A DNA stretch of 32,597 nucleotides from a virus: the IMG/VR virus record IMGVR_UViG_3300032311_000931, positions 1-32,597 of that record. One strand, given 5' to 3'. Every line of letters begins with the position of its first letter. The stretch's first letter is position 1. The position numbers and the translations under genes were made by a program. Below the pieces are notes generated by a model. That model did not search any database, was not told the DNA's origin, and was given only the letters and a program-made list of their open reading frames with translations. Below, in pieces: positions 2,478 through 27,026 of the stretch.

Positions 2478-2496
2478 TAATAAAACAATAAAAGAA

Positions 2497-2504
2497 TATT
2501 TATA
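2497..2504 (+). promoter_or_regulatory. TATTTATA putative late promoter element
   Basis: Exact TATTTATA in the 49-base gap between two fibre genes, ending 22 bases before the ATG at 2527. It belongs to a set of such sites placed in front of most transcription-unit-leading genes in this window. Confidence 0.5.
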
Positions 2505-2526
2505 AAAAACAAATCGGACTAACTAA

Positions 2527-5103: not shown

Positions 5104-5266
5104 AATACGAGTTGCATCTGTTAAAATATATAAAGGAGTTGGTTTTACAAGTTCAATGGTTTCTCAAAATTATAATATACAAAAAGGAAGATTTGGTTTA
5201 TAATATATTTGGTATTCTAAATTATTTTTCGTATATTTATTTCTATAAAACATTAAAAAGTTATAA
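5104..5266 (+). other. 163-base gap with a possible coding remnant and a promoter
   Basis: The longest gene-free gap in the window. From 5099 to 5203 an open frame without its own early start reads AKIRVASVKIYKGVGFTSS, then MVSQNYNIQKGRFGL and a stop. It is in a different frame from the preceding fibre and is closed by TAG at 5096-5098, so it is not a simple read-through. It may be a decayed fibre tail or chance. The downstream part holds a Bacteroidota-type promoter. Confidence 0.35.
5208..5241 (+). promoter_or_regulatory. Putative promoter: TTTG-N20-TATATTTA
   Basis: TTTG at 5208-5211 is followed after 20 bases by TATATTTA at 5232-5239, close to the Bacteroidota primary-sigma consensus (TTTG near -33, TAnnTTTG near -7). 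It also overlaps TATTTATT (5234-5241), a one-mismatch copy of the window's common TATTTATA element. It ends 25 bases before the glycosyltransferase start at 5267. The 15-base core TATTTTTCGTATATT recurs at 31412 before the DNA polymerase gene. Confidence 0.5.
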
Positions 5267-6166: not shown

Positions 6167-6167
6167 A

Positions 6168-6875: not shown

Positions 6876-6877
6876 TT

Positions 6878-7630
6878 ATGAAAAAATTAGGTGCAGTTAT
6901 AATTGAAGATAGAAAGATTACAGACTTTTATAGAATAGTAAAAGAACATATGAAGTATTTACCAAAAGATACTGATATACTTATTTACACATCGGAAAGT
7001 ACTGAAAAAGAATATAAAAAGTTATTAAAAGAAGATAATATTCAGTTTAGAAGATATCCGTCTAATTTAGCAGTTCCAAAAACCATGATAAACATTGCAG
7101 GTTTTGACGAATTGATGAAGTCAAACGATAGAATGAAACCTTTACTTAACTATTGTTTATTTACAACAAGTAGAGAGTTTTGGATTGACTTATATGAATA
7201 CGAAAGAGTTTTAATATTCCAAACTGATACCGGACTTTTAAGAGAAGGTATTGAAGAATTTTTAGATTATGACTATGTTGGTGCACCTTGCTATAATTGG
7301 GTTGGAGACAAAACAATTCAAAATGGTGGTTTATCAATTAGAAATCCAAGAATAATGGAATACATTTGTAGAAACTTTGGATGGCATAGTGACTTACAAG
7401 AATTGATACAAATCGGACAATACTCAACAGCATCTTTCTTTGCAGAGGACATCTTCTTTTGTTTAAGGATGATTAAGTACAATGTAGGAAATTATGCACC
7501 AATTGATATTGCAAAAAAGTTTAGTGTAGAATCTAAATTTGAATTAGGTACATTAGGATATCACAGACCTTACCCTTATATGGATGAGAGTGCAATCAAA
7601 CAAATACTTACTCAATACAATAAGAAGTAG
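6878..7630 (+). CDS. DUF5672-like putative glycosyltransferase
   Basis: I place the start at 6878 (MKKLGAVIIEDRK, 250 residues), two bases after the upstream stop; an in-frame ATG at 6836 lies inside the upstream gene and would only add 14 unrelated residues. Visible motifs match the DUF5672 family: QTDTGLL (115-121) after the hydrophobic strand RVLIF, YDYVGAPC (131-138), NGGLSIRN (149-156), AEDIFFC (189-195) and a terminal LGYHRP (226-231). Members occur in polysaccharide loci and are thought to be GT-A-like sugar transferases, with TD acting as the DxD-like site. It closes the three-gene sugar cassette embedded between fibre genes. Confidence 0.72.
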   Translation: MKKLGAVIIEDRKITDFYRIVKEHMKYLPKDTDILIYTSESTEKEYKKLLKEDNIQFRRYPSNLAVPKTMINIAGFDELMKSNDRMKPLLNYCLFTTSREFWIDLYEYERVLIFQTDTGLLREGIEEFLDYDYVGAPCYNWVGDKTIQNGGLSIRNPRIMEYICRNFGWHSDLQELIQIGQYSTASFFAEDIFFCLRMIKYNVGNYAPIDIAKKFSVESKFELGTLGYHRPYPYMDESAIKQILTQYNKK

Positions 7631-7656
7631 ACGAAATGTTTAATCTTAAAAATCAA

Positions 7657-7664
7657 TATTTATA
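7657..7664 (+). promoter_or_regulatory. TATTTATA putative late promoter element
   Basis: Exact TATTTATA in the 50-base gap after the sugar cassette, ending 16 bases before the ATG at 7681. It would start a new unit with the fibre and the 158-aa protein. Confidence 0.5.
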
Positions 7665-7680
7665 TCCAAACAAGATATAG

Positions 7681-9768
7681 ATGTTAATAAATGATGCTTC
7701 AATTACTGGATCTTTAATAGTAAATGCCAGTTCCTCTTTTCAAAATATAGCAGTTAGTGGTAATATCCTACCTGGGACAAACAATGTATATAATTTAGGT
7801 AGTGCTGACAAGTATTTCAAAGAGATATTTGTTTCTACAAGTTCAATCAATTTCGTAGATAATGGGATTGTTACTGCAAGTTTAAATGCAAATACGTTAA
7901 ATAGTTTATTACAAAATACTTCAAGTGCAAATGTTTCAATTGTAAATATTAATTCATTCACTCAATCATTTTCAGCATCAGTTTCTACATCATTTGGTTT
8001 AAGTGCAGTAAGTGTAACATCTTTAAGTTCATCGGTAACTACTACAATAACCACATTAAGTTCATCGGTTTCTACATCATTTGGTTTAAGTGCAGCAAGT
8101 GTAACTTCTTTAAGTTCATCAACTTCAACATCATTTAGTTCAAGTGCAGCAAGTGTAACTTCTTTAAGTTCATCAATATCATCATCGGTAACTTTTTTAA
8201 GTTCATCGTTGACATCGGTTAATACAACTCAAAATAATAGATTAAGTAGTATTGAATTAGTAACAGGTTCTTATGCAACTACTGGTTCTAATACATTCTT
8301 TGGAACTCAAACTTTTAGTGGAAGTGTTTTTATAGCAAATAACTTAACTGTACAAGGTAGTTCTTCAATTCAATATATTTCTGCATCATCCGTTTCAATT
8401 GGTACAAATATAGTACAATTAAATACGGCAAATCCTGCAATTAGATTTGCAGGATTGAGTATAATAGATAGTGGATCGGTTGGAGGATCAGGTTCATTCT
8501 TATACGATAGTAAAGAAGATGAATTTCTATTTGTTCATAGAGGAAATGGTATAAATGTAACCTCATCACATTTTGTAATGGGTCCAGAAACTTTTGACAA
8601 TTTAGGTAATGAAATATATTTAACAACGAATGTCTTATCAAAGGGTACCGGAAAAGAACATTTAGTAGATAGTTGTATTTTTGACAATGGAACTACTACA
8701 TGTTTTTATAATTCTACAACAATAAACTCTAGTGGTGTATTAACTTCAACAAATTTAGTAGGAACAATATGTGCAAGAAATGGTGTTGTATCAGGTTCGT
8801 CACAAGTTGATGGTACTGCAATAACAAATAAATCAATAACAATTGCAGGAACTTCAACAGCATTAGGTGGAACAATTACTTTGGCAACTATGACCGGTGG
8901 AAGTGCAATACATAGTGGTTCTTATTTAGCAACAGCAACAACTGCAAATTTATCAGAAAATACTAATTTATATTATACCGATGCAAGAGTAAAAACAAAA
9001 TTAGATGCAGAAACTGTAATAAGTGGAAGTGGACAAGTTGCAATTGCATCTACATCTGGATTTGGAACATATATCAATCAGGCATTACTTACCACATCAT
9101 CACCTACATTTAATACAGTTACAGCTACTTTTAGTGGTAATATAACAGGTAACGTAACTGGTAATGTGTCTGGTACTTCAAATAATATTACAGCATATAC
9201 TATTAACCAAAGTGTAGGTACAAGTGATTCTCCATCATTTAACCAAGTATTTTCTAGTAATAATGGTAATGGTACAAATTATAGAGTTGGGGATGATGCT
9301 TGGTTTGGTGATGTAAATGTAGCAAATACAGTAAGATTAAAGGGTGTTCAAGATGCAACTGCTGGTTATTTAACTTTTGGAAACCAAACTACTCAATTAG
9401 GTTTAACAAACTCTACTACGTTAACATGGGGTGCCGCGTTTACAGCTACAGGTGACGTAACAGCTTATTCAGATATAAGAGTTAAAGAAAATATTAAAAC
9501 AATAGATAATGCTTTAGATAAAGTGTTACGTTTAAGAGGTGTTACATTTAATAGAATAGATTTAGATGACAAGTCCGAAAAAATGGGTGTTATTGCTCAA
9601 GAAATAATGAAAGTAGTTCCTCAAGTAATAATGGAAGAAAATGATAGATTATCAGTAGCATACGGAAACTTAGCTGCCTTATTTATCGAAGCAATAAAAG
9701 AACAACAAATCAAAATAGACAATCTTACAATAGAAGTAGAAAATCTTAAAAAACCAAAAGGACTATAA
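7681..9768 (+). CDS. Tail fibre with C-terminal S74 chaperone domain, paralogue 3 (core type B)
   Basis: A 695-residue fibre. N-terminal beta repeats include NNVYNLGSADKYFKEIFVS, a segment common in phage fibres. Residues about 100-180 are a Ser/Thr-dense stalk of repeated VSTSFGLSAASVTSLSSS units that replaces the LSNLE stalk of its paralogues. The type B core follows (about 195-343), then VSGSSQ and a segment with TTSSPTFNTVTATFSGNITG. The C-terminus is an S74 intramolecular chaperone of endosialidase type: YSDIRVKENI, with the expected Ser-Lys dyad at S597 and K602 (five apart), then GVIAQEIMKVVP and a final EQQIKIDNLTIEVENL coiled coil. In this family the domain trimerises the fibre and then cuts itself off. 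The stop overlaps the next start by one base. Confidence 0.9.
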   Translation: MLINDASITGSLIVNASSSFQNIAVSGNILPGTNNVYNLGSADKYFKEIFVSTSSINFVDNGIVTASLNANTLNSLLQNTSSANVSIVNINSFTQSFSASVSTSFGLSAVSVTSLSSSVTTTITTLSSSVSTSFGLSAASVTSLSSSTSTSFSSSAASVTSLSSSISSSVTFLSSSLTSVNTTQNNRLSSIELVTGSYATTGSNTFFGTQTFSGSVFIANNLTVQGSSSIQYISASSVSIGTNIVQLNTANPAIRFAGLSIIDSGSVGGSGSFLYDSKEDEFLFVHRGNGINVTSSHFVMGPETFDNLGNEIYLTTNVLSKGTGKEHLVDSCIFDNGTTTCFYNSTTINSSGVLTSTNLVGTICARNGVVSGSSQVDGTAITNKSITIAGTSTALGGTITLATMTGGSAIHSGSYLATATTANLSENTNLYYTDARVKTKLDAETVISGSGQVAIASTSGFGTYINQALLTTSSPTFNTVTATFSGNITGNVTGNVSGTSNNITAYTINQSVGTSDSPSFNQVFSSNNGNGTNYRVGDDAWFGDVNVANTVRLKGVQDATAGYLTFGNQTTQLGLTNSTTLTWGAAFTATGDVTAYSDIRVKENIKTIDNALDKVLRLRGVTFNRIDLDDKSEKMGVIAQEIMKVVPQVIMEENDRLSVAYGNLAALFIEAIKEQQIKIDNLTIEVENLKKPKGL
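7981..8220 (+). repeat. Ser/Thr-rich stalk repeats
   Basis: Imperfect tandem repeats encoding VSTSFGLSA(V/A)SVTSLSSS and shortened variants. At the DNA level the phrase for SLSSS is repeated many times. Nearly half the encoded residues are serine, with valine or leucine in regular positions, suggesting a trimeric stalk. Confidence 0.75.
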
Positions 9769-10244
9769 TGGCATTACAAAGTAGTGGAACGATTTCAATT
9801 AGTGAAATAAAAACAGAATTAGGGAGTGTATCGTATTCACTTCATACTTTAAGCCTTGCAGCTGGTAAATCAACACCCGATGCAATGAGTGAATTTTATG
9901 GATATAGTAATGTAACTACATTTCCAAACAACTGGCAATATAGTCCACTAACTACATTAGCAGACCCCGGTTCTGGTAATATTAGACTGAATAGTACTTA
10001 TTTATCATCTGTTACATGGATTGCTGTAAATAATTTTGGAAATACTGTATCTGCATTAAGTGCAAATATCAATAGTATAATAAGAGCTGAAGCCGCATAT
10101 ACTCCTACAAACTATATAGAATTAATATTAACATCAAATTCAACTAATAATGGTAGTTGGCAATACTATACGGGAACCAGAGTTTCATATGGAGGTAGTT
10201 TTAATGCGGGGCAAATAACCAAAATAACAATAAAAAAAGCATAA
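9768..10244 (+). CDS. Small virion-associated protein with GKSTPDAMSEFYGYS segment
   Basis: A 158-residue protein whose ATG overlaps the stop of the S74 fibre by one base (TAATG), implying coupled translation. Residues 1-47 (GTISISEIKTELG, then LSLAAGKSTPDAMSEFYGYS) match a short module I know from many Bacteroidota phage structural proteins, where it usually sits at the N-terminus ahead of variable beta domains. The remaining ~110 residues look like a small beta-rich domain with no recognised family; the end is KITIKK-A. It could be a fibre accessory, hinge or tip protein. No enzyme motif is seen, and the function beyond probable virion association is unknown. Confidence 0.65.
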   Translation: MALQSSGTISISEIKTELGSVSYSLHTLSLAAGKSTPDAMSEFYGYSNVTTFPNNWQYSPLTTLADPGSGNIRLNSTYLSSVTWIAVNNFGNTVSALSANINSIIRAEAAYTPTNYIELILTSNSTNNGSWQYYTGTRVSYGGSFNAGQITKITIKKA

Positions 10245-10265
10245 ACTAATTCGGAATAAATTAAA

Positions 10266-10273
10266 TACTTATA
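10266..10273 (+). promoter_or_regulatory. TACTTATA, variant of the late promoter element
   Basis: One mismatch from TATTTATA, in the 61-base gap ahead of the largest fibre, ending 32 bases before the ATG at 10306. The only intergenic gap between 9768 and 19247 long enough for a promoter. Confidence 0.35.
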
Positions 10274-10305
10274 GGTAGTATCAATTAAACAGAGAATAAT
10301 TACGA

Positions 10306-13300
10306 ATGAGACAACATAATTTAAGAGTCACAGGTTCACTAACAGTTAATGGAGAAAATGTAGTATCAGCATCACAATTGTCCGCATTAAATTCAACTTT
10401 AACGGGACAATATGCAACTACCGGTTCTAATATGTATAATGGTAACCAAACTATTACAGGTTCATTGTTAGTGACTGGAGTAATTACTGCTAACGAATTT
10501 CATACTACATTTGTAACATCTTCGGTTTTATATACATCAGGTTCTACTAAATTTGGAGATAGTAATGATGATATAATGGAAGTTACTGGTTCTCTAAAAG
10601 TTAACGGAAACATCACTGCAAATAATTTAAGTGGTATTGTTTCTGGTTCGTCACAAATCACATCATTGTTACCAATAGGAGTAGTTTCGGGTTCATCCCA
10701 ACTTACCGCTTCATATGATGTTAGATACGTTATAAGTGGTTCTATTACCCAAACAACATGGGACAACATTGCATCTAAACCTGATGGAATAGTATCAAGT
10801 TCTGCACAAGTTATTTTACAATCTACTACGGGTCAATTATCTGCAAGTAGAGTTGATGGATTAAACTTATCACAAATAGCAAGTGGTTCTTATACTGCAT
10901 CAATCGGACAAACTTTCAATGTAAATACCTCAACTACAATCACAGGTTCACTTTCAGTAACATCTTTAAGTGGAAGTGGTATAAATTATTTAGCATATAG
11001 TGGTGGAGTAATAACAGCAATATCTGGAACTGCAGCAATCAAATACAATCAAGAGTTTACTGCAACATTAGGACAAACCACATTTACACCTTCAATCGGA
11101 TATATAACTGGTTTGATTGATGTATTTTATAATGGTACAAAATTATCTACAACCGACTATACTGCATCAAACGGAAGTACAATTGTTTTATCTCAAGGTG
11201 CAGATTTAGCAGGTGACATTATTGAAGTTGACATTTATAATCCAGTTAGTGGAGTTAGTAATAATACTTTAAGACAACAAACTACATTTACTGCATCTGT
11301 AGCACAAACAACATTTACAGTCAATTATACACCTGGTTTATTAGATGTATTTTTTAATGGTTCTAGATTGTCAAACGAAGAATATACTGCAAACAACGGA
11401 ACATCAATAATACTTTCCGAAGCTGCAACTGGTGGAGAAATAATAGATATATTTGTTTATTCATATCAAATTGGTGCATTTAGTGGAGTAGGTGGAAGTG
11501 GTGTATTAAATCAATTAGCATATTGGAGTTCTCAAAGTGGACTAACAGGAAGTAATAGTTTAACATTTGACGGAACTACTTTAACAATAAGTGGTTCGTT
11601 AGTTCCTGCAGTTAGTGGAGCATATGACTTAGGTAGCACATCAAAACCATTTAGACATATATACGTTGGAAGTGGTTCAATCTATTTAGTCAACAATCAA
11701 GGTCAAGTTACCAATACAATATCTGCACAAAGTATAGTTACAACGGACACTCTTAATAGTGGAAGTATTGACTTAACAAAATCATTACCAACGGGTACTG
11801 TATCAGGTTCGTCACAAATAGTGGGTATATTAACATCTCTTAATACTGCAACTGCATCGTTTTCACCAAGAGTGTCAAATTTGGAAAGTAAAAGTAGTAG
11901 TGTTGACATAAGTATTACAAACATTAACTCATTCACTGCAAGTAATGGTACTACATCTCTAAACTTAAAAACAGGTTCATACGCAACAACAGGTTCTAAT
12001 ACATTTTTTGGAACTCAAACATATAGCGGAAGTGTTTATATAGCAAATGATTTGATTGTACAAGGTAGTTCTTCAATCCAATATATCTCTGCATCTTCGG
12101 TATCAATTGGTACAAATATAGTACAATTAAACACTGCCAATCCATCAGTTAGATTTGCAGGTTTAACCATAATAGATAGTGGATCGGTTGGAGGTTCTGG
12201 TTCATTCCTTTACGATTCGGTACAAGATGAATTCATATTTGTACATAGAGGAAACGGAACGAACATAACATCATCCCACTTTGTATTAGGGCCGGAAACA
12301 TATGATAGTTTAGGTAATGAAACATATTTGACTTCTAATATAATTCCAAAGGGAACGGGTAAAGAACATTTAATAGATAGTTGTATTTTTGATAATGGAA
12401 CTACGACTTGTATTAAGAATAATTTAGTAGGAACGGGAACTATGAGTGGAACTACAATTTATGGTAGTACGGCTGTTTGTTCTCCTGTCGGTAAATTTAC
12501 TAGCTGTATTGATGTGGGTAGTGGTACATTCACTGGTGGTGTAACGGCAACAAGTTTTAATTTAGGAAATGGCCAATATTTAAGACTAACTAGAAATAGT
12601 GGTGCATTGCAATATGATGCTTTTGGAATTGTAGTAGGTACGGATAATACAAGAATTATATCTACAAATGATTTTGATATAGTAAATGGTGGGTTAGTTA
12701 GTCAATTTAAAATAGCAGGTTCAGGAGTAGCTACCTTTGCTTGTAGTGTAGGTATATGTAATGGTGGTGTTATTAACATGACCATACCAAATGGTAATAA
12801 TGGTGGTGCAATTAGAATGTCATGTTGTACAGGAGCAAACGAAGGTGATATGTTTCTTACAGGAGGAGGAGGAACTGGTATACTAATTGCGGGTAGTGGA
12901 AAAATTGGAATTGGAACAACTATACCTCAGTCAACTTTACATATCGGCCCTTCATTAAATTCAATGCCAGCCGCAACTTCAATAGCAGTACCCGGAGATA
13001 CCTCTATAAGATTTATGGCAGGATCAGATGGTAACGCTAACTACGGAAGTTATATTGCTGGAACTCAAACTGCTGGTGTTAGAGCATTATCATTAGGATA
13101 TAGACAAGGTGACGGAGACGTACTAACAATGACTATTACACAATTAAGTACTGGTATAGGTGCAGTTGGTATAGGTATAAGTAACCCAACCGCACTTTTA
13201 CATCTTTGCCAGACAGGACAGCCCGCAACTCCACTTGGTCTTTATTCTACTATGACTTTACAAACAAATTCTCAAGCAAATTACCAAAGAATTAGATTTG

Positions 13301-13989
13301 ATAGAGATGGTTGTGCCTTTTGGGGAGTAGGAGTAGAAGGTGCTAGTAGTACTAATGATTTTATGATATCAGGTTTAGTAGGCGGTAAAGCAGCAGGTAC
13401 ATGGTCGGATAGTGTACTTAGAATAAAAAATAGTAATGGAGCCGTATTAGTTAATGCAACATCTTTCCCTAACTATGGAAAATTTAACTCATATACCAAT
13501 GATGCGGCTCCAGCTGGAAGATTTTATGGTGGTGCAAGTAATTCAGAAGGTGCTATCGTTTTAATGGTTGATAAATATTCAGCAACCACCACAACTTCTC
13601 AATGGTTTTTAGGTTTTACTATAAACCAACAAACAATAGCATCCGGTGTAATTACTGCAAATGGAGCATCACAAGCTGCGTTTGGTTCTTGGTCTGATAG
13701 AAGATTAAAAGAAAATATTACCGATTTACCAAGTCAATTATGTAATATTTTAGCATTAAGACCTGTTGAATTTGACTATATAGAATCAGAAGGTGGTGGC
13801 CATCAAACAAGCTTTATTGCACAAGAATTTGAAACAATATATCCTGATGCAATAGGAGAAAGACCTGACGGAATGAAAACAATAACCGGATGGGGTAAAA
13901 CGGAAGCAATATTAGTCAAAGCAATACAAGAACAACAATGCACAATACAATGTTTGACAAATAGAATAGAACAATTAGAAAATAAATAA
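10306..13989 (+). CDS. Largest tail fibre with S74 chaperone domain, paralogue 4 (core type B)
   Basis: A 1227-residue fibre. Order of parts: VTGSLTVNG-type beta repeats; several VSGSSQ/VSSSAQ repeats (residues ~110-175); two tandem ~70-residue domains of the pattern FTATLGQTTFTP...DVFYNGTKLS..DYTASNGSTIVL (about 245-390), widespread in marine phage fibres; a second beta-repeat section with AYDLGSTSKPFRHIYVG; one LSNLE stalk unit; the type B core (about 555-705); cysteine-rich GIGT repeats; and a C-terminal S74 chaperone. The latter has SWSDRRLKENI with the Ser-Lys dyad at S1130 and K1135, TSFIAQEFETIYPDAIGE, and a terminal EQQCTIQCLTNRIEQLENK coiled coil. Probable self-processing trimeric fibre. 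The next gene starts two bases after its stop. Confidence 0.9.
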   Translation: MRQHNLRVTGSLTVNGENVVSASQLSALNSTLTGQYATTGSNMYNGNQTITGSLLVTGVITANEFHTTFVTSSVLYTSGSTKFGDSNDDIMEVTGSLKVNGNITANNLSGIVSGSSQITSLLPIGVVSGSSQLTASYDVRYVISGSITQTTWDNIASKPDGIVSSSAQVILQSTTGQLSASRVDGLNLSQIASGSYTASIGQTFNVNTSTTITGSLSVTSLSGSGINYLAYSGGVITAISGTAAIKYNQEFTATLGQTTFTPSIGYITGLIDVFYNGTKLSTTDYTASNGSTIVLSQGADLAGDIIEVDIYNPVSGVSNNTLRQQTTFTASVAQTTFTVNYTPGLLDVFFNGSRLSNEEYTANNGTSIILSEAATGGEIIDIFVYSYQIGAFSGVGGSGVLNQLAYWSSQSGLTGSNSLTFDGTTLTISGSLVPAVSGAYDLGSTSKPFRHIYVGSGSIYLVNNQGQVTNTISAQSIVTTDTLNSGSIDLTKSLPTGTVSGSSQIVGILTSLNTATASFSPRVSNLESKSSSVDISITNINSFTASNGTTSLNLKTGSYATTGSNTFFGTQTYSGSVYIANDLIVQGSSSIQYISASSVSIGTNIVQLNTANPSVRFAGLTIIDSGSVGGSGSFLYDSVQDEFIFVHRGNGTNITSSHFVLGPETYDSLGNETYLTSNIIPKGTGKEHLIDSCIFDNGTTTCIKNNLVGTGTMSGTTIYGSTAVCSPVGKFTSCIDVGSGTFTGGVTATSFNLGNGQYLRLTRNSGALQYDAFGIVVGTDNTRIISTNDFDIVNGGLVSQFKIAGSGVATFACSVGICNGGVINMTIPNGNNGGAIRMSCCTGANEGDMFLTGGGGTGILIAGSGKIGIGTTIPQSTLHIGPSLNSMPAATSIAVPGDTSIRFMAGSDGNANYGSYIAGTQTAGVRALSLGYRQGDGDVLTMTITQLSTGIGAVGIGISNPTALLHLCQTGQPATPLGLYSTMTLQTNSQANYQRIRFDRDGCAFWGVGVEGASSTNDFMISGLVGGKAAGTWSDSVLRIKNSNGAVLVNATSFPNYGKFNSYTNDAAPAGRFYGGASNSEGAIVLMVDKYSATTTTSQWFLGFTINQQTIASGVITANGASQAAFGSWSDRRLKENITDLPSQLCNILALRPVEFDYIESEGGGHQTSFIAQEFETIYPDAIGERPDGMKTITGWGKTEAILVKAIQEQQCTIQCLTNRIEQLENK
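11041..11475 (+). repeat. Two tandem FTA-GQTTFT/DVFYNG domains inside the large fibre
   Basis: Two consecutive homologous ~70-residue modules, one reading TATLGQTTFTPSIGYITG...LIDVFYNGTKLSTTDYTA, the other TASVAQTTFTVNYTPG...LLDVFFNGSRLSNEEYTA. The protein similarity is obvious while the DNA has diverged, so the duplication is old. No other fibre in the window carries this module. Confidence 0.8.
11872..11946 (+). repeat. Single 28-residue-type stalk unit
   Basis: One VSNLESKSSSVDISITNINSF unit directly ahead of the shared core, the same repeat family as at 141, 2740, 14226 and 16643. Confidence 0.7.
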
Positions 13990-13991
13990 TA

Positions 13992-16421
13992 ATGGGAAAA
14001 ACAAGGAACACCGGTAAGTTAGCAACACAAATACAATTTGACAATAGCAATAATCTTGTCATAGGTACTTCTGCATCATCTTCATTTAATACAAGTGGAA
14101 GTGTAAATGCAATAGGAGGTATTACTGGTTCTATATTTGGAATTGGAAATCCTACAAGTTTTTCTGCATCTATATCGTCAAATTTAGTTAGTATACAAAG
14201 TGTTACTGCATCTAATATTGCACGCTTGTCAAATTTGGAAACAAAGAGTAGTAGTGTTGACATAAGTGTTAGTAGTATTAATACATTCACATCAAGTAAT
14301 GCAAACACATCTCTAAACCTATTAACAGGTTCTTTAGCAACTACTGGTTCTAATACATTTAAGGGAACTCAAATAGTTTCTGCAAGTATGTATGTAACCG
14401 GTGACTTTGTAGTATTTGGAAGTTCTTCTATTCAATATATCTCTGCATCATCTGTGTCAATTGGAACTAATATCGTTCAACTTAATACAGCAAATCCTGC
14501 AGTAAGATACGCAGGTTTATCGGTACAAGATTCAGGAAGTGCACAAGGTGTTACTGGGTCTATGTTATGGGATTCGGTATGTAATAGATGGATATACTCA
14601 AACCCTTCAGGAGTTGGATATTCAGGTGGAGTAATTATGTCAGGACCAAGAGCAGCAACTTTCGGTACGGAAACAACATTGACTTGTAACTATATTGCAA
14701 AATCAGGAGGTGGAGACCATTTGTATGATTCTTGTATTATAGATGATGGAACTACAACCTGTATTAAGAATAATTTAGTAACAACGGGTACTGCTTGTTT
14801 TGCAAGTAGTGTAACATCAAGTACACTGCAAATTAATAGTACAACATATGTTCCATTAAAAATCAATACAACTTATGGTCAAGTAGGTTTAGAATTTCAA
14901 TTAAATGGTATTGGTTTTGGCGGCATAGGTTCTGCAACTAACTTTACTGGTGCGTATAGTTGTAGTAGTACCGATATAGGTATTGGGACTAATGGTTCTT
15001 CAACATCAAATATAATATTTGCAACAGGTACAGGATTTGAAAGAAGAATGATTATTAACAGCTGTGGTTATATAGGTATAGGATCAGACCCTTTAACTTC
15101 AACAGCAGCAGCTCTTCAAATTGAACAAGCACAATCAAATATAGTGGCAATTAGAAGAGCAAATTGTTCAAATACAGGAAACTCAAGAGTATTATTTCAA
15201 GCTTATAATGCTTCGGGAACAATACAAAATACAGGCATTGTTGAAGCTGGATTAGATAGTAGTGCTACTAATGGTTATATAGGATTTTATGCAGGCACTG
15301 CTACTATGAATATGAAAATTACTAGTATAGGTAATGTCGGAATTGGAACGACTTGCCCTGACTCAAAACTTCATATTTGTAATTCTGTAGCTGGTAATAC
15401 AGATAACTTTTTAATTATAGTACAAAACTGTTGTACAGTTTCAGGTGCAAGAGCTGGTATAGCTTTTTCAAACAACAGCCAAACTCCAACCGCGGGTGGA
15501 TTATCAGGAGCCGCAATTCAAACCTCAAACAATGGCGTTGATGGAGCAGGCAATTTATTATTTTCAACATTAATAAGTGGTGCAAGTTGTGAAAGAATGC
15601 GTATAACGAGTGGAGGACTTATTGGTATGAACCAACCTTCACCGACTTATAGACTAGAAATTTGTAGTCCATCCTCCGATTGCGTATTGGGTTTAATGAG
15701 CGCAAATGGTGTGAATATTGATATGGTGGGTTATGGAGTTTCTTTAACGTATCCTCAAGCAAGAGTCCAAATGAATGATGACGGATTCTATGGAGGTAAC
15801 TTATCATTTTTCACTAAGCCAAATGGAGCATCAGGAAATGGTTTGACTGAAAGAATGCGTATAACGAGTTGTGGTAAAGTTGGTATCGGGGCATGCAGTC
15901 CTAAATGGTTATTAGAAATATGTGCAAATAATGCATGCGGAGGTGCAGGACAATATCCAGCATTAGCAATAAACAATGTATGTGTAACGGGATATGCAGG
16001 AATATATTTTTACAGAGGATTAGATCAAATGGGAGGACTGGAAATATCAAACTCAACTTGTAATATCTTAATTAATTCTCAAAACGGTGCATTAAATTTA
16101 CAAACGGCTGGAACTAATAGATTAACACTTAATAATGTTGGCGGATTTGGAACACAATTATGCAATTTCTGTTTAACTGGTACTTATCAAACTTTAGTAA
16201 CAGTTGAAAATGGATCATACGGTTTATTAATGTTATCATCATGTATAGGTGGAGGAACATATGCATTGTATAATATATTTAACAATGCCGGCACTACTAC
16301 AGCAAATCTTATTCAAGGTAATAATATACCAACCTGTATAGTAGGAAATGCAGTTCAAGTTAAAAGTACTAATGGTGCTACTTATTGTGATGTAAGATCA
16401 AGTTATATAAGATTTTATTAA
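13992..16421 (+). CDS. Tail fibre / adhesin, paralogue 5 (core type A, cysteine-rich)
   Basis: An 809-residue fibre starting two bases after the previous stop. Its N-terminus (MGKTRNTGKLATQIQFDNSNN) is homologous to that of the next fibre, suggesting a shared attachment domain. One stalk unit (79-103) precedes the type A core, which has SVQDSGSAQGVTGSMLWDS and GGGDHLYDSCIIDDGTT. The distal part has four repeats of the VGIGTTCPDSKLHIC kind and two of ERMRITS. I count about 26 cysteines, all after residue ~195, compared with one in the 749-residue sheath. The C-terminal end (CDVRSSYIRFY) is unrecognised; there is no S74 or C1q-like domain. Confidence 0.84.
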   Translation: MGKTRNTGKLATQIQFDNSNNLVIGTSASSSFNTSGSVNAIGGITGSIFGIGNPTSFSASISSNLVSIQSVTASNIARLSNLETKSSSVDISVSSINTFTSSNANTSLNLLTGSLATTGSNTFKGTQIVSASMYVTGDFVVFGSSSIQYISASSVSIGTNIVQLNTANPAVRYAGLSVQDSGSAQGVTGSMLWDSVCNRWIYSNPSGVGYSGGVIMSGPRAATFGTETTLTCNYIAKSGGGDHLYDSCIIDDGTTTCIKNNLVTTGTACFASSVTSSTLQINSTTYVPLKINTTYGQVGLEFQLNGIGFGGIGSATNFTGAYSCSSTDIGIGTNGSSTSNIIFATGTGFERRMIINSCGYIGIGSDPLTSTAAALQIEQAQSNIVAIRRANCSNTGNSRVLFQAYNASGTIQNTGIVEAGLDSSATNGYIGFYAGTATMNMKITSIGNVGIGTTCPDSKLHICNSVAGNTDNFLIIVQNCCTVSGARAGIAFSNNSQTPTAGGLSGAAIQTSNNGVDGAGNLLFSTLISGASCERMRITSGGLIGMNQPSPTYRLEICSPSSDCVLGLMSANGVNIDMVGYGVSLTYPQARVQMNDDGFYGGNLSFFTKPNGASGNGLTERMRITSCGKVGIGACSPKWLLEICANNACGGAGQYPALAINNVCVTGYAGIYFYRGLDQMGGLEISNSTCNILINSQNGALNLQTAGTNRLTLNNVGGFGTQLCNFCLTGTYQTLVTVENGSYGLLMLSSCIGGGTYALYNIFNNAGTTTANLIQGNNIPTCIVGNAVQVKSTNGATYCDVRSSYIRFY
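14226..14300 (+). repeat. Stalk repeat unit
   Basis: One LSNLETKSSSVDISVSSINTF unit, preceded by a partial one ending VTASNIAR. Confidence 0.7.
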
Positions 16422-16438
16422 TAGAAAAAAAACAATAA

Positions 16439-18655
16439 ATGGGAAAGAATAGAAAGCAGGCAAGTTTGACAAATGTAGTACAATACGATAGTAATTTTAA
16501 TCTATCTATTGGTTCATCTACATCATCATCATTTAATTCAAGTGGTAGTATAATAGCTGCATCCGGATTTACTGGATCATTATCTGGGTCCGTTTTTGGA
16601 TTAGGTAATACTGTTTCATTTAGTTCGTCCGTTTCATCTGACTTAATAAATTTAGAAATAAAGTCTGCAAGTGTTGACATTTCTATTACAAATATCAATT
16701 CTGTAACTGCATCTAACATTGCACGCTTGTCAAATTTGGAAAGCAAAAGCAGTAGTGTTGATATAAGTGTTAGTTCTCTTAATACATTTACAGCATCTAA
16801 TGCAAATCAATCTCTGAATTCAAAAACAGGGTCATATGCAACAACAGGTTCTAATTCATTCTATGGTACACAAGTATTTTCAGGAAGTGTTTATATTGCA
16901 AATGATTTAGTAGTTCAAGGTAGTTCATCTATTCAGTATATTTCGGCATCTTCGGTGTCAATAGGCACTAATATTGTCCAACTTAATACTGCCAATCCGA
17001 GTGTGAGATTTGCCGGATTAACTGTAATAGATAGTGGATCAATTGGTGGATCAGGATCATTTTTATATGATTCAGTACAAGATGAGTTTATATTTGTACA
17101 TAGGGGAAATGGCACGAATGTGACATCATCTCATTTTATAATGGGACCAGAAACCTTTGATAACTTAGGAAACGAAACTTATTTAACTTGCAACTTATTA
17201 ACAAAAGGTACAGGTAAAGAACATTTGGTGGATAGTTGTATTTTTGACAATGGAACTACTACTTGTATTAAGAATAATTTAGTAACAACAGGAACAATAA
17301 TTGGAACTACAATTTATGGTAGTACGGCTGTTTGTTCTCCTGTTGGTAAGTTTAGTACCTGTATTGATGCCGGTAGTGCAACGTTTAGTAATTCTTTGAC
17401 GGTTGATTATGCAGCAGTAGATGTTGACCTTAATGTAAAAAATACTCAATCAGCAGGAGCTGCTAATTTATATTTGAGAGCAAATGCAAACGGTACTGCA
17501 GATGTTAGATTTACAAGAAACTCAGATAGTTCTATACAAGGTAGAATAAGTTATAGTTTTACGGATGGTTCAATGAATTTTAGAACAGGTGGTAATGATA
17601 ATAAATTATTAATATCATCAACAGGATATGTTGGAATTGGAACAAATTGTCCAACTGGTTATTTAAATATTTCTACAGCTACTCCCGGACAAAATGAACC
17701 ACATATAAGATTAACCGATAGTAGTACCTCTGGAAATGGAGGAAATGTTTACATCAGTGCAGATAAAACGGGAGTGGGATATAACAATCTAACAATGCTT
17801 GCTTTCTCTTATACATTTAAAGGAGGGGCAAGTGCAACAAACTATTTAACAATTGACACATCTGGAATATCTTGTTTTAAAGGTACCGTTTGTGCACCTA
17901 CACTATTTGCTAGTACAGCAATATTTTCTAGTGTTTATTGTGTTAATTCCTACAATTCATTAAGTTCAACAACAAGTGGACAGATGGGTGTTTTAGGACA
18001 TAATGCAATTTCAAGTCAAGTTACCTCCAATACTATCAATCAAATGAATAGTGGTTATTATGGTAGTTTTATAAGACAATACTATAATGAAGGTATAACA
18101 TTTTATACAAGAGCAAATGCAGGAACGGCGGGAGATGTTTTATATGGAACTTCTGCTGTAGCTGATGGTGGAGAAAGAATGCGTATTACAAGTACAGGTA
18201 TAGCTTGTTTTGCTTGTCAAGTTTGTGCTAAATCATTAACTACAACAAGTGGTGGAGTTTCTCAAATTCAAAATGGTGTAAAAACCCAAACATTTTTTGC
18301 ATATAAATTAATAAACGAAAATAGTACTGCAAACTTTTTTAGAATTACAACAGCAGGAGCATCATCTACTCATACACAACTAATAGCTTCAAATGCAGGA
18401 GTAGGTTGGCATACTTCTCAAATATACCATGCATCAAATGCAGGTTATTGGGGTGGATATATTGGAAGTGGGGCAAGTATATCAATAACAAATAGTTCAG
18501 CTGGATATATAAGTGGTATATATAGCGATAACGCAGGAGCACAAAATTATTGTGTTACTGTTGCAAGTAATGGAACCAGTACACAGAGTTTAGTAGTAGC
18601 ATACATTACTGTAGTATTAGCCGATGGTTATGGTGTAACATTTACACAATTATAA
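16439..18655 (+). CDS. Tail fibre / adhesin, paralogue 6 (core type B)
   Basis: A 738-residue fibre beginning 17 bases after the previous one. The N-terminus (MGKNRKQASLTNVVQYDSNFN) matches paralogue 5; two stalk units (69-121) are followed by the type B core, as in paralogues 2, 3 and 4. Just after the core, 42 bases (17302-17343) are identical to part of the large fibre (12447-12488), pointing to gene conversion or recent exchange. One VGIGTNCPTGYLNIS repeat and an ERMRITS segment follow. The C-terminal ~130 residues (from the AYKLINENSTANFFRI region to VTFTQL) look like a beta-rich tip of no recognised family; S74 is absent. Confidence 0.84.
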   Translation: MGKNRKQASLTNVVQYDSNFNLSIGSSTSSSFNSSGSIIAASGFTGSLSGSVFGLGNTVSFSSSVSSDLINLEIKSASVDISITNINSVTASNIARLSNLESKSSSVDISVSSLNTFTASNANQSLNSKTGSYATTGSNSFYGTQVFSGSVYIANDLVVQGSSSIQYISASSVSIGTNIVQLNTANPSVRFAGLTVIDSGSIGGSGSFLYDSVQDEFIFVHRGNGTNVTSSHFIMGPETFDNLGNETYLTCNLLTKGTGKEHLVDSCIFDNGTTTCIKNNLVTTGTIIGTTIYGSTAVCSPVGKFSTCIDAGSATFSNSLTVDYAAVDVDLNVKNTQSAGAANLYLRANANGTADVRFTRNSDSSIQGRISYSFTDGSMNFRTGGNDNKLLISSTGYVGIGTNCPTGYLNISTATPGQNEPHIRLTDSSTSGNGGNVYISADKTGVGYNNLTMLAFSYTFKGGASATNYLTIDTSGISCFKGTVCAPTLFASTAIFSSVYCVNSYNSLSSTTSGQMGVLGHNAISSQVTSNTINQMNSGYYGSFIRQYYNEGITFYTRANAGTAGDVLYGTSAVADGGERMRITSTGIACFACQVCAKSLTTTSGGVSQIQNGVKTQTFFAYKLINENSTANFFRITTAGASSTHTQLIASNAGVGWHTSQIYHASNAGYWGGYIGSGASISITNSSAGYISGIYSDNAGAQNYCVTVASNGTSTQSLVVAYITVVLADGYGVTFTQL
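16643..16801 (+). repeat. 28-residue stalk repeat, two copies
   Basis: Units at 16643 and 16727 encode LINLEIKSASVDISITNIN and LSNLESKSSSVDISVSSLN. They occupy the same position relative to the core as in the other fibres. Confidence 0.8.
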
Positions 18656-22190: not shown

Positions 22191-22679
22191 ATGCCAGATA
22201 TTTTAACCTTTGATAAGATGTTTTATAAGAATTTTGAACCTAAGTTAGGCAATAGATTCATTATGGAAATCAATGGTATCGAATCATATATCATCAAAAC
22301 AGCAAATAGACCTACATTTACGTCAGAAGTAGTTGAATTAGACCACATCAACGTAAAGAGAAAGATTAAAGGTAAATCAACATGGGATGATGTAACAATC
22401 ACACTTTACGACCCAATTGTACCATCAGGTGCACAACAAGTAATGGAGTGGGTTAGACAATCACATGAGTCATTAACAGGTAGAGATGGATACGCTGCAT
22501 TCTATAAGAAAGATATTACTTTCTTCTTATTAGGACCAGTAGGTGATAAAATTGAACAATGGACTTTAAAAGGAGCATTTATCTCTTCAGCAAACTTTGG
22601 TGAATTAGATTGGGCATCAAACGATCCAGTATCAATTGAATTAACTTTGACTTACGATTACGCTATATTAGAATACTAA
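22191..22679 (+). CDS. Tail tube protein (T4 gp19-like)
   Basis: A 162-residue protein, the same size as T4 gp19 (163). Supporting segments are NRFIMEINGIESYIIKTANRP (14-34), the strand pair DHINVKRKIKGKSTWDDVTITLYDP, MEWVRQSH, and the C-terminal WTLKGAFISSANFGELDWAS...SIELTLTYDYA. These match the T4-like tail-tube family, whose hexamer rings stack to form the inner tube. It lies directly after the sheath gene, as in nearly all myoviruses, and is followed by a strong terminator. Confidence 0.95.
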   Translation: MPDILTFDKMFYKNFEPKLGNRFIMEINGIESYIIKTANRPTFTSEVVELDHINVKRKIKGKSTWDDVTITLYDPIVPSGAQQVMEWVRQSHESLTGRDGYAAFYKKDITFFLLGPVGDKIEQWTLKGAFISSANFGELDWASNDPVSIELTLTYDYAILEY

Positions 22680-22778: not shown

Positions 22779-23594
22779 ATGAGTGAAAACATCGAACAAC
22801 AAGTTACAAGAGGATTAGGATCAACTCCATCACAATCACAAAGAAGTTATCCGTTCCCAACTGAGGTATTAAGTTTACCATCAAAAGGATTAGTATATCC
22901 AGAATCAAACCCATTATCTAAAGGAGAAATTACAGTTAAACTAATGACTGCAAAAGAAGAAGATATTTTAACTTCTCAAAACTTAATTAGAAAAGGTATT
23001 GTAATGGATAAATTATTAGAATCTATTATAGTAGATAGTTCAATAAACATCAATGATATTATTATTGGGGACAAAAATGCAATATTGGTTTCTTCAAGAG
23101 TTTTAGCATTTGGTCCAGAATATAAAATAAGTGTTAGAGACCCACAAGAAGGAGAAGATGTTGAGGTAGAAGTTGATATGAGTCAATTAAAAATTAAAGA
23201 AATTGATGAGTCTAAATTAAATAGAGAAAATGAATATGATTTCATTCTTCCTAAAACAAAAACTCCAATCAAATTTAAGATAATGACTCATGGTGATGAA
23301 ATTGCAGTAAATAAGGATATTGAAGCAAGTGAGAAAATATCAAAACAATCAAACGAAATACAAGCGAGATATAGAAGATTGATTACGGAAGTTAATGGTA
23401 ACAGAGAGGTTGGATATATCAGTAATTTTGTAGCAAATCAATTGTTAGCAGCTGATTCAAAAGCCTTAAGAAAGTATATTAATGAAATATCTCCAGATGT
23501 TGATTTTACATTTGAGTATACTTCACCTTTTACCGGCGAGACGGAGGCGTTAAAAGTACCAATTGGGGTAAACTTTTTTTATCCTACCGACTAA
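22779..23594 (+). CDS. T4 gp26-like baseplate hub / tail-assembly protein
   Basis: A 271-residue protein of the T4 baseplate gp26 family (I believe Pfam PF12322). The start of the domain reads VLSLPSKGLVYPESNPLSKGEITVKLMTAKEEDILTS in two parts (residues 30-66), followed by LIRKGIVMDKLLESIIVD, GDKNAILVSSRVLAFGPEYKISV, and a C-terminal half ending FEYTSPFTGETEALKVPIGVNFF. The frame stops five codons after a seven-T run at 23574-23580; the +1 frame carries a conserved-looking extension. It lies between tube and tape-measure genes, the usual place of tail-assembly chaperones; in T4, genes 26 and 51 are adjacent. Confidence 0.8.
   Translation: MSENIEQQVTRGLGSTPSQSQRSYPFPTEVLSLPSKGLVYPESNPLSKGEITVKLMTAKEEDILTSQNLIRKGIVMDKLLESIIVDSSININDIIIGDKNAILVSSRVLAFGPEYKISVRDPQEGEDVEVEVDMSQLKIKEIDESKLNRENEYDFILPKTKTPIKFKIMTHGDEIAVNKDIEASEKISKQSNEIQARYRRLITEVNGNREVGYISNFVANQLLAADSKALRKYINEISPDVDFTFEYTSPFTGETEALKVPIGVNFFYPTD
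23572..23591 (+). promoter_or_regulatory. Candidate programmed frameshift window (seven-T run)
   Basis: The gp26-like frame ends at TAA 23592-23594. The +1 frame is blocked by TAA at 23569-23571 and then open to 23790. The two frames therefore overlap only from 23572 to 23591, and this window begins with ACTTTTTTT. A +1 or -2 slip on the T run changes FFYPTD-stop into FFILPTNYSTF and onward. A one-base homopolymer assembly error would give the same picture. Confidence 0.55.
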
Positions 23595-23793
23595 TTACAG
23601 TACTTTCCTACATAAAAAATTATTTAATATGGTTTACTCATCCAATGGAGGTTTCAATTGGCATGATGTATACCTTATGCCTATAAAATTAAGAGATTTT
23701 TATTGGAATGAGTTGATGAATACAAAAACATCAGAAGCAGAATCAATGAAAGCGGCATCTAAAGGAAAGGGTTCTTCAGCAAGAAGACGATAA
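23572..23793 (+). CDS. Frameshift extension of the gp26-like protein, or separate small gp51-like gene
   Basis: The open +1 frame encodes, from the slip site, ILPTNYSTFLHKKLFN, MVYSSNGGFNWHDVYLMPIK, LRDFYWNEL and a basic Ser/Lys/Arg tail ending SSARRR. If joined at the T run the fused product would be about 337 residues (267 + 70). The pattern 'H-x-x-(I/L)-F ... GGF ... VYxMP(I/V)xLRxFY' is one I associate with small proteins or C-terminal parts next to gp26-like proteins in other phages. Alternatively, translation starts at ATG 23629, giving a 54-residue protein, but that start lies in the middle of the conserved-looking region and has no visible Shine-Dalgarno. Position between tube and tape measure fits a tail-assembly chaperone extension, as in lambda G/GT. 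Confidence 0.62.
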   Translation, partial: TFFILPTNYSTFLHKKLFNMVYSSNGGFNWHDVYLMPIKLRDFYWNELMNTKTSEAESMKAASKGKGSSARRR

Positions 23794-23836: not shown

Positions 23837-24091
23837 ATGTCAAAACTTTTAATAGAAAGAAATGTGTTCCAAAAATTAATAGATTTGTTTTTCAAAGCAA
23901 AGGCTAATGATAATCAAGACCAATTTATATCAAAAATAAAATATACAAACCCAGAATTGGGTAATGCATTTAAAAAAATGGATGATTCAATGGTAAAATC
24001 GACATTGGCATTAAAAGATGCATTAGAATCTGCAGGATTGGATACCACAGAAGCAGACAACTTTTTGAAAAAGTATTACAATAAATTTTAA
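23837..24091 (+). CDS. Small helical protein of unknown function before the tape measure
   Basis: An 84-residue protein, unrecognised. It appears fully helical and amphipathic (NVFQKLIDLFFKAKANDNQ, FKKMDDSMVKSTLALKDALE) with no membrane segment or signal. It lies 13 bases before the tape-measure gene and shares its putative promoter. A small tail-assembly or tape-measure-associated factor would fit, but this is context only. Confidence 0.65.
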   Translation: MSKLLIERNVFQKLIDLFFKAKANDNQDQFISKIKYTNPELGNAFKKMDDSMVKSTLALKDALESAGLDTTEADNFLKKYYNKF

Positions 24092-24104: not shown

Positions 24105-27026
24105 ATGGCTGCAAACGATAAAAAAACAATTGCCGAATTACAAAGGCAATTAAATCAAATTCAAGCTTCTACTAATCTAAATGATAAGGAGAAGGAATCT
24201 GCTGCCAAAAGAATTGCACAGGCAATCAAAGAACAAAGAATTGAAACGGAACTATTAGTTAAATCATCGAAAGATTATGACGATGTATTGGGTAGTATTG
24301 GTAGTTCTTATGGTAAAAATAATAAACTATTTAAAGAATCAGAAAAAATACTAAGCCATGCAAAAATGCAAGTGGATGGTATGGTTGCTTTATCTGATAA
24401 ATTAGGCAAATCTAATAAACAATATAAAGGTGATATTTTAGAAGTTGCAAAGGGATATAAACAAGTAAATAGTTCTATCTTAACTAGTTTAGATAATGTA
24501 ATTAAAACTGGTAAAGGTGAAAAGGAAATTGCAAAAGCAGTTGAGAAACAGGTAAAATCACATGGCGTACTTATTTCAAAAATAGATGTACAAACCAAAT
24601 CAGGTAAAGCTTACAAAAAACTATTAGAATCACAAGTTGAACAAATGAACAACTTAGGTAAGGCAGCTACTGCCGCAGCTAAGGATATTGAAAAAATGCA
24701 TAAAGGTTCAGAAGCTTTGTCAGAAAGTTCATTGGGTGGTAAAATTAATGAGTTTTTGAAACTTAATAAAATGATGGGAGGGAAGACGGGTAGTATAGGT
24801 GACTTAGCCAAAAATATGGCAACAAATAGAGCATCTAAAATAGGTGGAGCAACAAATATACCGGCACCTGGTACTAAAGGAAATCCTGTAATGTCAGGTG
24901 GTAAACAATTATTTGGAGCAGCTGCACAATCTGCATTAAAATCAGGAAGTGGAACTGCATCAATTGCAGCAGAAACTGCAGGTGGTGCAGGTGGTTTAAT
25001 ATCATCATTGGGTTCAATGATGGCAATTGTTGCACCGATATTAGCAATAGTTGGTTTGATATATATGGCATTTGATTTTTGGAATAGTGGAGGACTTGCA
25101 AAAACAATGGCATCTGCAAAAATGCTTACCGGAAATAAGATGTTGGGTAAACAGGGTGTTAAAGAAATGCGAAAATCTTTAGAAGGTACCGAAGAGGTTA
25201 GAAAGATTAATGCGGAATATGCATACTTAAAACCATTAGAACTCAAACAAGAACACGAAAAGGCACTATATGATTGGGAAGCCGATCACGATAAGCAATT
25301 ATTACAATATCGTCAAAGTCTTACAACAGACCAAATGAATTTTGAATTTGAGTTGAGAAGAGAGGCATTTGAAGGTGAGAGAGCTAGAAGTAAATCTTTG
25401 TATTTGACTAATATGTCACAATTCAAAAATTCTATTGGTATTTCTGAACAGGCTTTACAGGCAATTGGGTCATCTACTGATTCCGTATTAGAAAGTGTAA
25501 AAGAATTGGGTGCACAATTAGGAACAAGTCTTAAAGAACAAATATCAATGGCAGCTTCTGCAGCTGGTCTTGGTAAATTATATCAAACTAGTGGTACGGA
25601 TGTATTAAAGATGAGTAGAAATTTCCGTTTAATGGACAAATCTTCATCTAAAGTGGCATTCAATAATATAGCCGGTTTAAGTGCATTTGCAGAATTAAAT
25701 CAAATTAGTCCCGGTGAGTTATTTAAACAAATGGCAGATGCATCGGAAGAAATATTGAAGTATAGTAATATGACTACTTCACAATATGCTAATCAGGCAG
25801 TTTTATTATCTAACATGAATACATCAATGAAAGATATGGCAGCTGCATCGGGAACAATGGTACTTAATTATAAAGATAGTATCAAATCCGAAATGAGTTT
25901 ATCTGCAATGTTGGGTAGAAATGTAAATCTTTCAGAAGTTAGAGCTAGATTGATGTCAGGAGATATGGCAGGTGGAGCATCTGCATTGAAATCCGCATTA
26001 GGTGGGATTGATATAGGTTCAATGAATGCATTCCAAAAACAAGCATTGTCACAATCAACCGGTATGGGTATAGAACAATTGATGGAATTGACCCAATCAA
26101 AAGGTGGTGGTGCTAAAGGAGTATTATCTGAAAGAGCGGGAATTAAAACAGGAAGAGATATTGCAAAAGGTGCACGTGATATGGATATTTCAACAAAAGC
26201 AAGTCTGATGTCAATGGAACAAGATCAGAGATTGAAAATGTTGGAAATAGAACACGAACATAGATTAGAACAAATTGAAAAAGAAGAAGCTTGGAGAGTA
26301 TTGTGGGAAATTAAATACGGAAAAAACCAAGCATTGGACATGAATGCTGCAAATAAATTAGTAGAATCGGCATCTGGGGCCGCAACATATGCTTCATTAA
26401 ATAGTCAAGGTGCATTTGCCGATGGAGCGGGTTTTAATGCATATGGATTGAATTACAACGCAGCAAATACGGGATATAATTTTACAAAATCAGGATATAA
26501 ACTATCCTCATCCACCGATTTAATCAGAGCACTAAATGGTGGGTATAACCCTAATAGTGGTGGCACAACAACTACAACCAATTCGGCAACAACATCGGTT
26601 GCAGCGGGTGGTAGTGATATGTATGAAATGGTAAAACAAGGATTTAATGAAATGGTTAAAGGGTGGAATTTACAAAATACAAATTTTGGTAATCTAACTT
26701 CTCATGTCGACACCTTTCACGATAATCAGTTAAGTAGACTAAACTCAGCTGTCAATACATTAGTTACTTGGGTAGATACTGCACATGATAATAATTTAAC
26801 AGAATTTAATAAACAATTGTCAGAATTATATGTTGTACAAGTATATGCAAATACTGAATTATTAAGACGAACCGATGTAACAAATTCATTATTAGACACA
26901 TTAATAGAAGCAACAGTTACTACTGCAGCCAAACCTATTACAATAGATGGTAAACGTGTTAATGATGTTATGAAAAATGTTCAAACAAGAGTTTATGGTA
27001 TAACAGGTAATGCAAGTGGAACATAA
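24105..27026 (+). CDS. Tail tape-measure protein
   Basis: A 973-residue protein, the longest non-fibre gene. The N-terminal 220 residues are Lys/Glu/Gln-rich helix (AELQRQLNQIQ onward). Residues 235-300 are Gly/Ala-rich, followed by a hydrophobic membrane-type segment at about 300-325 (SMMAIVAPILAIVGLIYMAF), typical of tape measures that insert during DNA delivery. The central part has helical segments including QFKNSIGISEQALQAIGSS and LSAMLGRNVNLSEVRARLMSG; a charged coiled coil (EIEHEHRLEQIEKEEAWRVL) lies near 705-730. The C-terminal PITIDGKRVNDVMKN segment is common at tape-measure ends. The protein sets tail length; position downstream of tube and upstream of baseplate genes agrees. No lytic domain seen. 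Confidence 0.88.
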   Translation: MAANDKKTIAELQRQLNQIQASTNLNDKEKESAAKRIAQAIKEQRIETELLVKSSKDYDDVLGSIGSSYGKNNKLFKESEKILSHAKMQVDGMVALSDKLGKSNKQYKGDILEVAKGYKQVNSSILTSLDNVIKTGKGEKEIAKAVEKQVKSHGVLISKIDVQTKSGKAYKKLLESQVEQMNNLGKAATAAAKDIEKMHKGSEALSESSLGGKINEFLKLNKMMGGKTGSIGDLAKNMATNRASKIGGATNIPAPGTKGNPVMSGGKQLFGAAAQSALKSGSGTASIAAETAGGAGGLISSLGSMMAIVAPILAIVGLIYMAFDFWNSGGLAKTMASAKMLTGNKMLGKQGVKEMRKSLEGTEEVRKINAEYAYLKPLELKQEHEKALYDWEADHDKQLLQYRQSLTTDQMNFEFELRREAFEGERARSKSLYLTNMSQFKNSIGISEQALQAIGSSTDSVLESVKELGAQLGTSLKEQISMAASAAGLGKLYQTSGTDVLKMSRNFRLMDKSSSKVAFNNIAGLSAFAELNQISPGELFKQMADASEEILKYSNMTTSQYANQAVLLSNMNTSMKDMAAASGTMVLNYKDSIKSEMSLSAMLGRNVNLSEVRARLMSGDMAGGASALKSALGGIDIGSMNAFQKQALSQSTGMGIEQLMELTQSKGGGAKGVLSERAGIKTGRDIAKGARDMDISTKASLMSMEQDQRLKMLEIEHEHRLEQIEKEEAWRVLWEIKYGKNQALDMNAANKLVESASGAATYASLNSQGAFADGAGFNAYGLNYNAANTGYNFTKSGYKLSSSTDLIRALNGGYNPNSGGTTTTTNSATTSVAAGGSDMYEMVKQGFNEMVKGWNLQNTNFGNLTSHVDTFHDNQLSRLNSAVNTLVTWVDTAHDNNLTEFNKQLSELYVVQVYANTELLRRTDVTNSLLDTLIEATVTTAAKPITIDGKRVNDVMKNVQTRVYGITGNASGT

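Follow-up and report, generated by a model that had tools for sequence, protein, structure and literature searches.

A probable +1 ribosomal frameshift at a UUU_Y site in a tail-assembly chaperone gene of a phage lineage

We analysed a 32,597-nucleotide stretch of viral DNA, hereafter the window (IMG/VR record IMGVR_UViG_3300032311_000931), in which one gene very probably yields two versions of a tail-assembly chaperone (TAC), some ribosomes skipping one base forward at a run of T, as judged by comparison with related sequences. In the reading that best explains the data overall, to which we assign a probability of about 0.83, a short form (TAC-N) and a longer fusion (TAC-NC) arise by +1 slippage on an in-frame UUU followed by U or C (UUU_Y), with an upstream hairpin probably acting as a stimulator in much of the family.

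The locus and its reading frames

The TAC-N ORF occupies positions 22,779–23,594 and, like the other parts of the frameshift locus, lies on the + strand. Its 271-residue product is gp26-like and matches PF12322 (T4_baseplate; E 6e-7, 29.8 bits against a gathering cut-off of 24.5) as well as phrog_150 (E 2.5e-11), a family labelled ‘baseplate hub’. The gene lies between a gp19-like tail tube gene (22,191–22,679; PF06841) and a tape-measure-like ORF of 973 residues in the tape-measure position (24,105–27,026), the placement by which TAC genes are recognized, and the same order is found in Mel-JY01, immuto and LIS04. Downstream of the frameshift gene, a small ORF of 84 residues (23,837–24,091) precedes the tape measure.

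The TAC-N ORF ends in VPIGVNFFYPTD (...GVNFFYPTD) and is closed by the TAA at 23,592–23,594; in relatives, the equivalent stop is found 15–36 nt past the first T of the run. A TAA at 23,569–23,571 closes the +1 frame, which is then open from 23,572 to 23,790 and stops at 23,791–23,793. Its translation begins TFFILPTNYSTFLHKKLFNMVYSSNGGFNWHDVYLMPIKLRDFYWNELMNTK, and the segment 23,572–23,793 encodes the C-terminal domain (TAC-C). Within the overlap, seven T (T7) at 23,574–23,580 are read in the 0 frame as part of AAC TTT TTT TAT. A ribosome slipping +1 once the second TTT is read, and resuming from 23,581, would produce a fusion of 337 residues (267 + 70), so that the frame layout and the approximate fusion length given beside the 271-residue form in a preliminary description of this DNA were confirmed.

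Under the proposed mechanism, most ribosomes would reach the TAA at 23,592 and release the 271-residue TAC-N, and the P-site tRNA-Phe would slip +1 on UUU_Y in the remainder, giving the TAC-NC fusion in vivo. By analogy with lambda gpG/gpGT, TAC-N would coat the tape measure and the rarer TAC-NC would recruit tail-tube subunits, the two chaperone forms thus possibly serving tape-measure and tube assembly.

A UUU_Y codon is present at every junction

To identify bases able to support a shift, every codon of the overlap was asked for re-pairing of the same tRNA after a +1 or a −2 movement, with no site preselected. The bases at the end of TAC-N were TTT TTT T in 140 of 185 distinct junctions, TTT CTT T in 28, TTC TTT T in nine, TTT CTA T in four, and singletons in the remaining four. 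In all 185, UUU followed by U or C, as +1 slippage in the P site requires, was found in frame, always at the first, the second or both of the same pair of codons: with TTC in first place the second codon is TTT, and with a leucine codon in second place the first is TTT. T7 itself, present at 140 of these junctions, occurs only four times elsewhere in these genes (136 kb), a contrast that speaks against chance. The base preceding it is T in none of the 140, compared with 38% of third positions elsewhere; since a T there would create a −1 slippery heptamer, its absence counts in favor of +1. The downstream frame, +1 in the window and in 242 loci, likewise does not correspond to a canonical −1 signal (X XXY YYZ). 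A stop in the +1 frame lies as little as 2 nt upstream of the T run at certain loci, including that of the window, and rules out an earlier shift at these. The A-site codons, mostly TGG, TAC and TAT, include none that is obviously slow, which counts against the +1 model.

The preliminary description had proposed a programmed shift of +1 or −2 at ACTTTTTTT; frameshifting at this place is supported by the relatives, which favor the first direction over the second. In a −2 ribosomal shift resembling that of Mu gpG/gpGT, the P-site tRNA-Phe would move back two bases and the fusion would carry one extra Phe. The same tRNA can indeed re-pair in this way at 143 of the 185 junctions, TTT TTT T included, and the window alone is compatible with such a shift; because −2 re-pairing is also possible at its T7, the direction assigned to the window rests on its relatives. 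At 41 of the 185 junctions, however, among them those of the TTC TTT T, TTT CTT T and TTT CTA T types, −2 re-pairing of the same tRNA is impossible anywhere in the overlap, yet the +1 frame and UUU_Y are kept. The family-wide re-pairing of a Mu-type shift is therefore absent, and we consider a −2 shift unlikely.

Transcriptional slippage on the T run, by which mRNAs one base shorter would let normal ribosomes read the fusion, appears very unlikely. Seven consecutive T in the AT-rich DNA of a phage could plausibly give rise to it, but at 42 of the 185 junctions every T run is four or shorter and the +1 C-terminal domain is nevertheless kept, and the upstream synonymous constraint and RNA structure reported below better fit a translational signal.

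The C-terminal domain is conserved in the +1 frame

When the frames were searched separately by tblastn, adjoining and overlapping matches offset by +1 were found in LR756508 and in the Microcystis phage Mel-JY01. A scan of viral contigs yielded 80 relatives (46–84% identity), to which later scans added LR756508-like, L083-like and immuto-like groups together with some MAG contigs. Scoring with a C-domain profile identified 247 loci with this domain downstream of TAC-N, 242 of them in the +1 frame and five in the −1 frame, the latter comprising L092, L124 and L096, which are T4-like or remote, as well as L108 and L113. The +1 arrangement spans TAC-N proteins down to ~26% identity and includes the cultured phages Mel-JY01, immuto, SP-15, LIS04 and GXN1; a query of the viral contigs with SP-15 TAC-N recovered only SP-15 itself.

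Past the 0-frame stop, the C-terminal domain has a dN/dS of ~0.11 (288 close pairs), compared with 1.4 when that DNA is translated one base out of register, and on these ratios it is under strong purifying selection in the +1 frame. Its predicted fold comprises three helices (mean pLDDT 83). A fold search with this domain gave no meaningful match, and no family in PHROGs or Pfam matched the C-terminal domain of the +1 phages. The relatives display the combination that characterizes frameshifted chaperone genes, namely a conserved, shifted, overlapping ORF that lacks a conserved start of its own and follows a conserved slip site, and they strongly support the suggestion of a long fusion beside a short form, as in lambda G/GT.

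Alternatively, the downstream frame could be a separate gene, translated from an internal start or by re-initiation after the 0-frame stop. The window does offer an ATG in this frame, at 23,629, and L108, L113 and LR756511 (L096) do appear to start at a separate ATG. Conserved residues are nonetheless encoded upstream of ATG 23,629, and 83 of 169 loci have no ATG at all before the conserved core, 32 of these 169 lacking even GTG and TTG. A separate gene would, moreover, have no need to conserve the +1 frame or UUU_Y. The independent gene with a conserved start and no slip site, which the preliminary description had raised as an objection, is thus not what the family contains, and we regard this explanation as very unlikely. 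A sequencing or assembly error concealing six T and one continuous ORF, also considered in that description since homopolymers are prone to errors, is practically dismissed by the same frame change in the 242 relatives and in finished phage genomes, including junctions that have no homopolymer.

In the public records MW353176, PP395634, KT624200 and OQ999172, the TAC-N gene is labelled ‘baseplate hub’ or ‘hypothetical’ and the proposed long form is unannotated; the long product has been missed in public genomes.

Synonymous constraint and RNA structure upstream of the slip site

Among the relatives, synonymous codon choice is strongly skewed immediately before the slip site. The glycine codon three codons upstream (23,565–23,567 in the window) is GGG in 63 of 99 cases, compared with five expected, and C or G is the usual third base of codon −1. 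The glutamate codon at −10 is GAG in 58 of 62 (11 expected) and belongs to a Shine-Dalgarno-like GGAGG motif around −31, which in the window occupies 23,543–23,547 and starts 31 nt before the T run. With one clade set aside, 72 of 99 loci had a GGAGG-like motif here; nowhere else along the gene did it occur in more than 2 of 111. A candidate stem with GGAGG as one arm was rejected, as it was not conserved (69% of cells paired, no covariation); GGAGG is hence conserved as sequence, through the choice of rare synonymous codons. Located 26 nt from the slip site, it seems too distant for a direct effect there.

The bases immediately upstream also fold more stably than expected. The folding energy from −24 to −1 was −5.06 kcal/mol, against −3.01 kcal/mol for synonymous-randomised sequence (t −8.3), and the segment from −36 to −13 departed likewise (t −9.7); among 24-base windows, a clear departure was seen only near the slip site. 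The excess from −24 to −1 persisted against GC-matched synonymous sequence in 64 thinned loci (t −5.3). The stems vary in sequence and register from clade to clade, their 3′ end usually lying no more than seven bases from the T run. In the L165-type clade, compensated changes occur in outer and inner stems alike: two pairs have changed from CG to UA and one from AU to CG, with eight doubly compensated cells (0 of 500 shuffles). Covariation is weak in the Y-type clade, to which the window belongs (8 of 500 shuffles for alignment A6, 254 of 500 for the two-helix version), and not significant in the upstream stem of the W-type clade.

In the window, the candidate hairpin is UACC-AAUUGG-GGUA (23,557–23,570), which ends 3 nt before the T run and is weak, with four pairs only; the family-wide structure excess and the covariation in another clade point to it. 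When stability is ranked along the gene, the 24 nt preceding the slip site come first in just 16 of 111 loci, although their median rank is within the top 5%, and the hairpin is accordingly a family-level signal and not diagnostic of a single locus. At the family level, these data make an upstream hairpin probable. In much of the family, such a hairpin, re-forming behind the ribosome and against the E site, would probably push it forward and thereby stimulate slippage.

Downstream RNA structure was rejected as a general stimulator, since no excess was found in the window or in most loci tested. A GC hairpin (GCCGCC/GGCGGC) 5 nt after T7 was observed only in the group of L072, L076, L081, L083, L085 and L137–L164; this clade is without GGAGG and shows one compensatory change (GCCGGC/GCCGGC), which alters amino acids in both frames. 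A search of Rfam returned chance matches only.

Probable change of direction and loss of the slip codon

The same gene is followed by an ORF in the −1 frame in S-RIM8, Melnitz-1, PhiW-14, Ackermannviridae (3M, VAP7), the KVP40-like VH1_2019, ZPAH1 and phiM12, and also in the jumbo phages Atu_ph07, CBB, XacN1, PA5oct and RAS14. Unlike the window, the T4-like and jumbo phages sampled have a −1 shift; in most of them the T run starts with the last base of a codon (NNT TTT TTC) and little 5′ structure is present, folding of the 24 bases upstream of the run being usually weak. In the cyanophages S-RIM8 and Melnitz-1 (L088 and L089), a GAGGG upstream of the −1 slip site could pair with a CCCTC downstream of it.

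The C-terminal domains of the two kinds are related (96% probability in a profile comparison with hhalign). In a maximum-likelihood tree of 59 TAC-N sequences, all +1 loci, including SP-15, LIS04 and GXN1, formed one clade together with the split genes (support 94/83), and the −1 loci fell outside it. The tree was rooted at its midpoint and contains several long branches; a single switch of direction is the simplest reading that it suggests, not proof of one. We hold at about even odds the broader proposal that the lineage carries a natural +1 signal of new design, consisting of UUU_Y and a refolding 5′ hairpin, plus GGAGG 26 nt away in many members, which would have arisen a single time from a −1 signal in the same position of the same gene through a change of T-run phase and the addition of 5′ structure.

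Two relatives, L108 (TTC TTG TAT) and L113 (TTC CTT TGG), are without UUU_Y, and their C-terminal domain is not in the +1 but in the other frame, with its own ATG a few bases past the TAC-N stop. Both are nested within the +1 clade, beside TTT CTT T relatives. On this tree, the slip codon is lost together with the change to a separate C-domain gene, as one event and not two; as a natural control, this association favors the frameshift reading. In L096 (LR756511, a 595-kb phage record), TAC-N does not end in FF, and a C-domain-like ORF in the −1 frame, with an ATG just past the stop, is apparently a separate gene.

Relation to known frameshift systems

T4 gp26 and gp51 both match PF12322, the family of TAC-N in the window. 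TAC genes of T4-like phages were reportedly identified by Vladimirov, Gautam and Davidson (2022; Virology 566:9-15), with T4 gp26 as TAC-N and gp51 as TAC-NC. They are also said to have proposed frameshifting in several T4-like groups, genes 26 and 51 of T4 itself being separate. The link between T4 hub-assembly factors and tail-assembly chaperones, put forward as new in the preliminary description, had thus in essence already been published. The adjacency of T4 genes 26 and 51 stated there was correct, but the two are on opposite strands, and gp51 is a PF12322 protein with a C-terminal extension; as it combines N and C in one gene, we rejected gp51 as a homolog of the isolated downstream ORF.

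The T4-like TAC work is cited in PMC10885494 and PMC12846349. T4-like TAC genes resemble the window in having a PF12322 TAC-N and a C-terminal domain in a shifted frame at a poly-T after FF, T4 itself having two genes. The TAC frameshift of Vandenendeviridae and Andersonviridae, with its GTTTTT motif (PMC12846349), was derived by the same comparative inference and is −1, opposite in direction. Lambda (gpG/gpGT), P2 and Mu resemble the window in arrangement, a single gene placed between those for tail tube and tape measure giving a short and a long chaperone; unlike the probable +1 of the window, the shift is −1 in lambda and P2 and −2 in Mu (PMC5009743, PMC3498833). A forward shift in a tail chaperone is not unheard of, since a haloarchaeal myovirus very likely uses +1 (PMC5009743), and the training set of PRFect includes forward-shift cases.

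Slippage of +1 on UUU_C has been established by mass spectrometry in a eukaryotic system (PMC3498833). As in UUU_Y, the P-site tRNA-Phe moves from UUU to UUY, and the UUC_UUU_CGU of GXN1 (L004) is close to the UCC_UUU_CGU described there; that case differs from the phage site in its eukaryotic ribosome and the rare CGU in the A site, and the passages on it mention no upstream hairpin. On 70S ribosomes, an RNA duplex placed at the E site promotes +1 and hinders −1 shifting, and in E. coli 70S extracts +1 shifting is increased by an upstream hairpin (PMC6321510). The engineered hairpin, which works on 70S ribosomes, resembles the arrangement proposed for the phages, in which an RNA duplex would likewise lie against the E site; its effect on +1 was seen only without RF2 and at a stop-codon site, which differs from the phage site. 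In the papers that were searched, we found no description of a lineage-wide +1 shift in PF12322 genes, of the UUU_Y rule or of the 5′ signals.

Tail chaperone frameshifts are textbook −1 recoding, and a +1 lineage at the homologous place of a homologous gene offers a natural pair for examining how the direction of slippage is determined. Should the 5′ hairpin act as the stimulator, it would be a natural counterpart of the effect shown with engineered stems in the papers found.

Elsewhere in the window, positions 3–18,655 encode several large fibre-like proteins with common repeated modules (e.g. GSSSIQYISASSVSIGTNIVQLNT), two of which end in a sequence resembling S74-type self-cleaving chaperones (KENI...), both features having been recognized by eye only.
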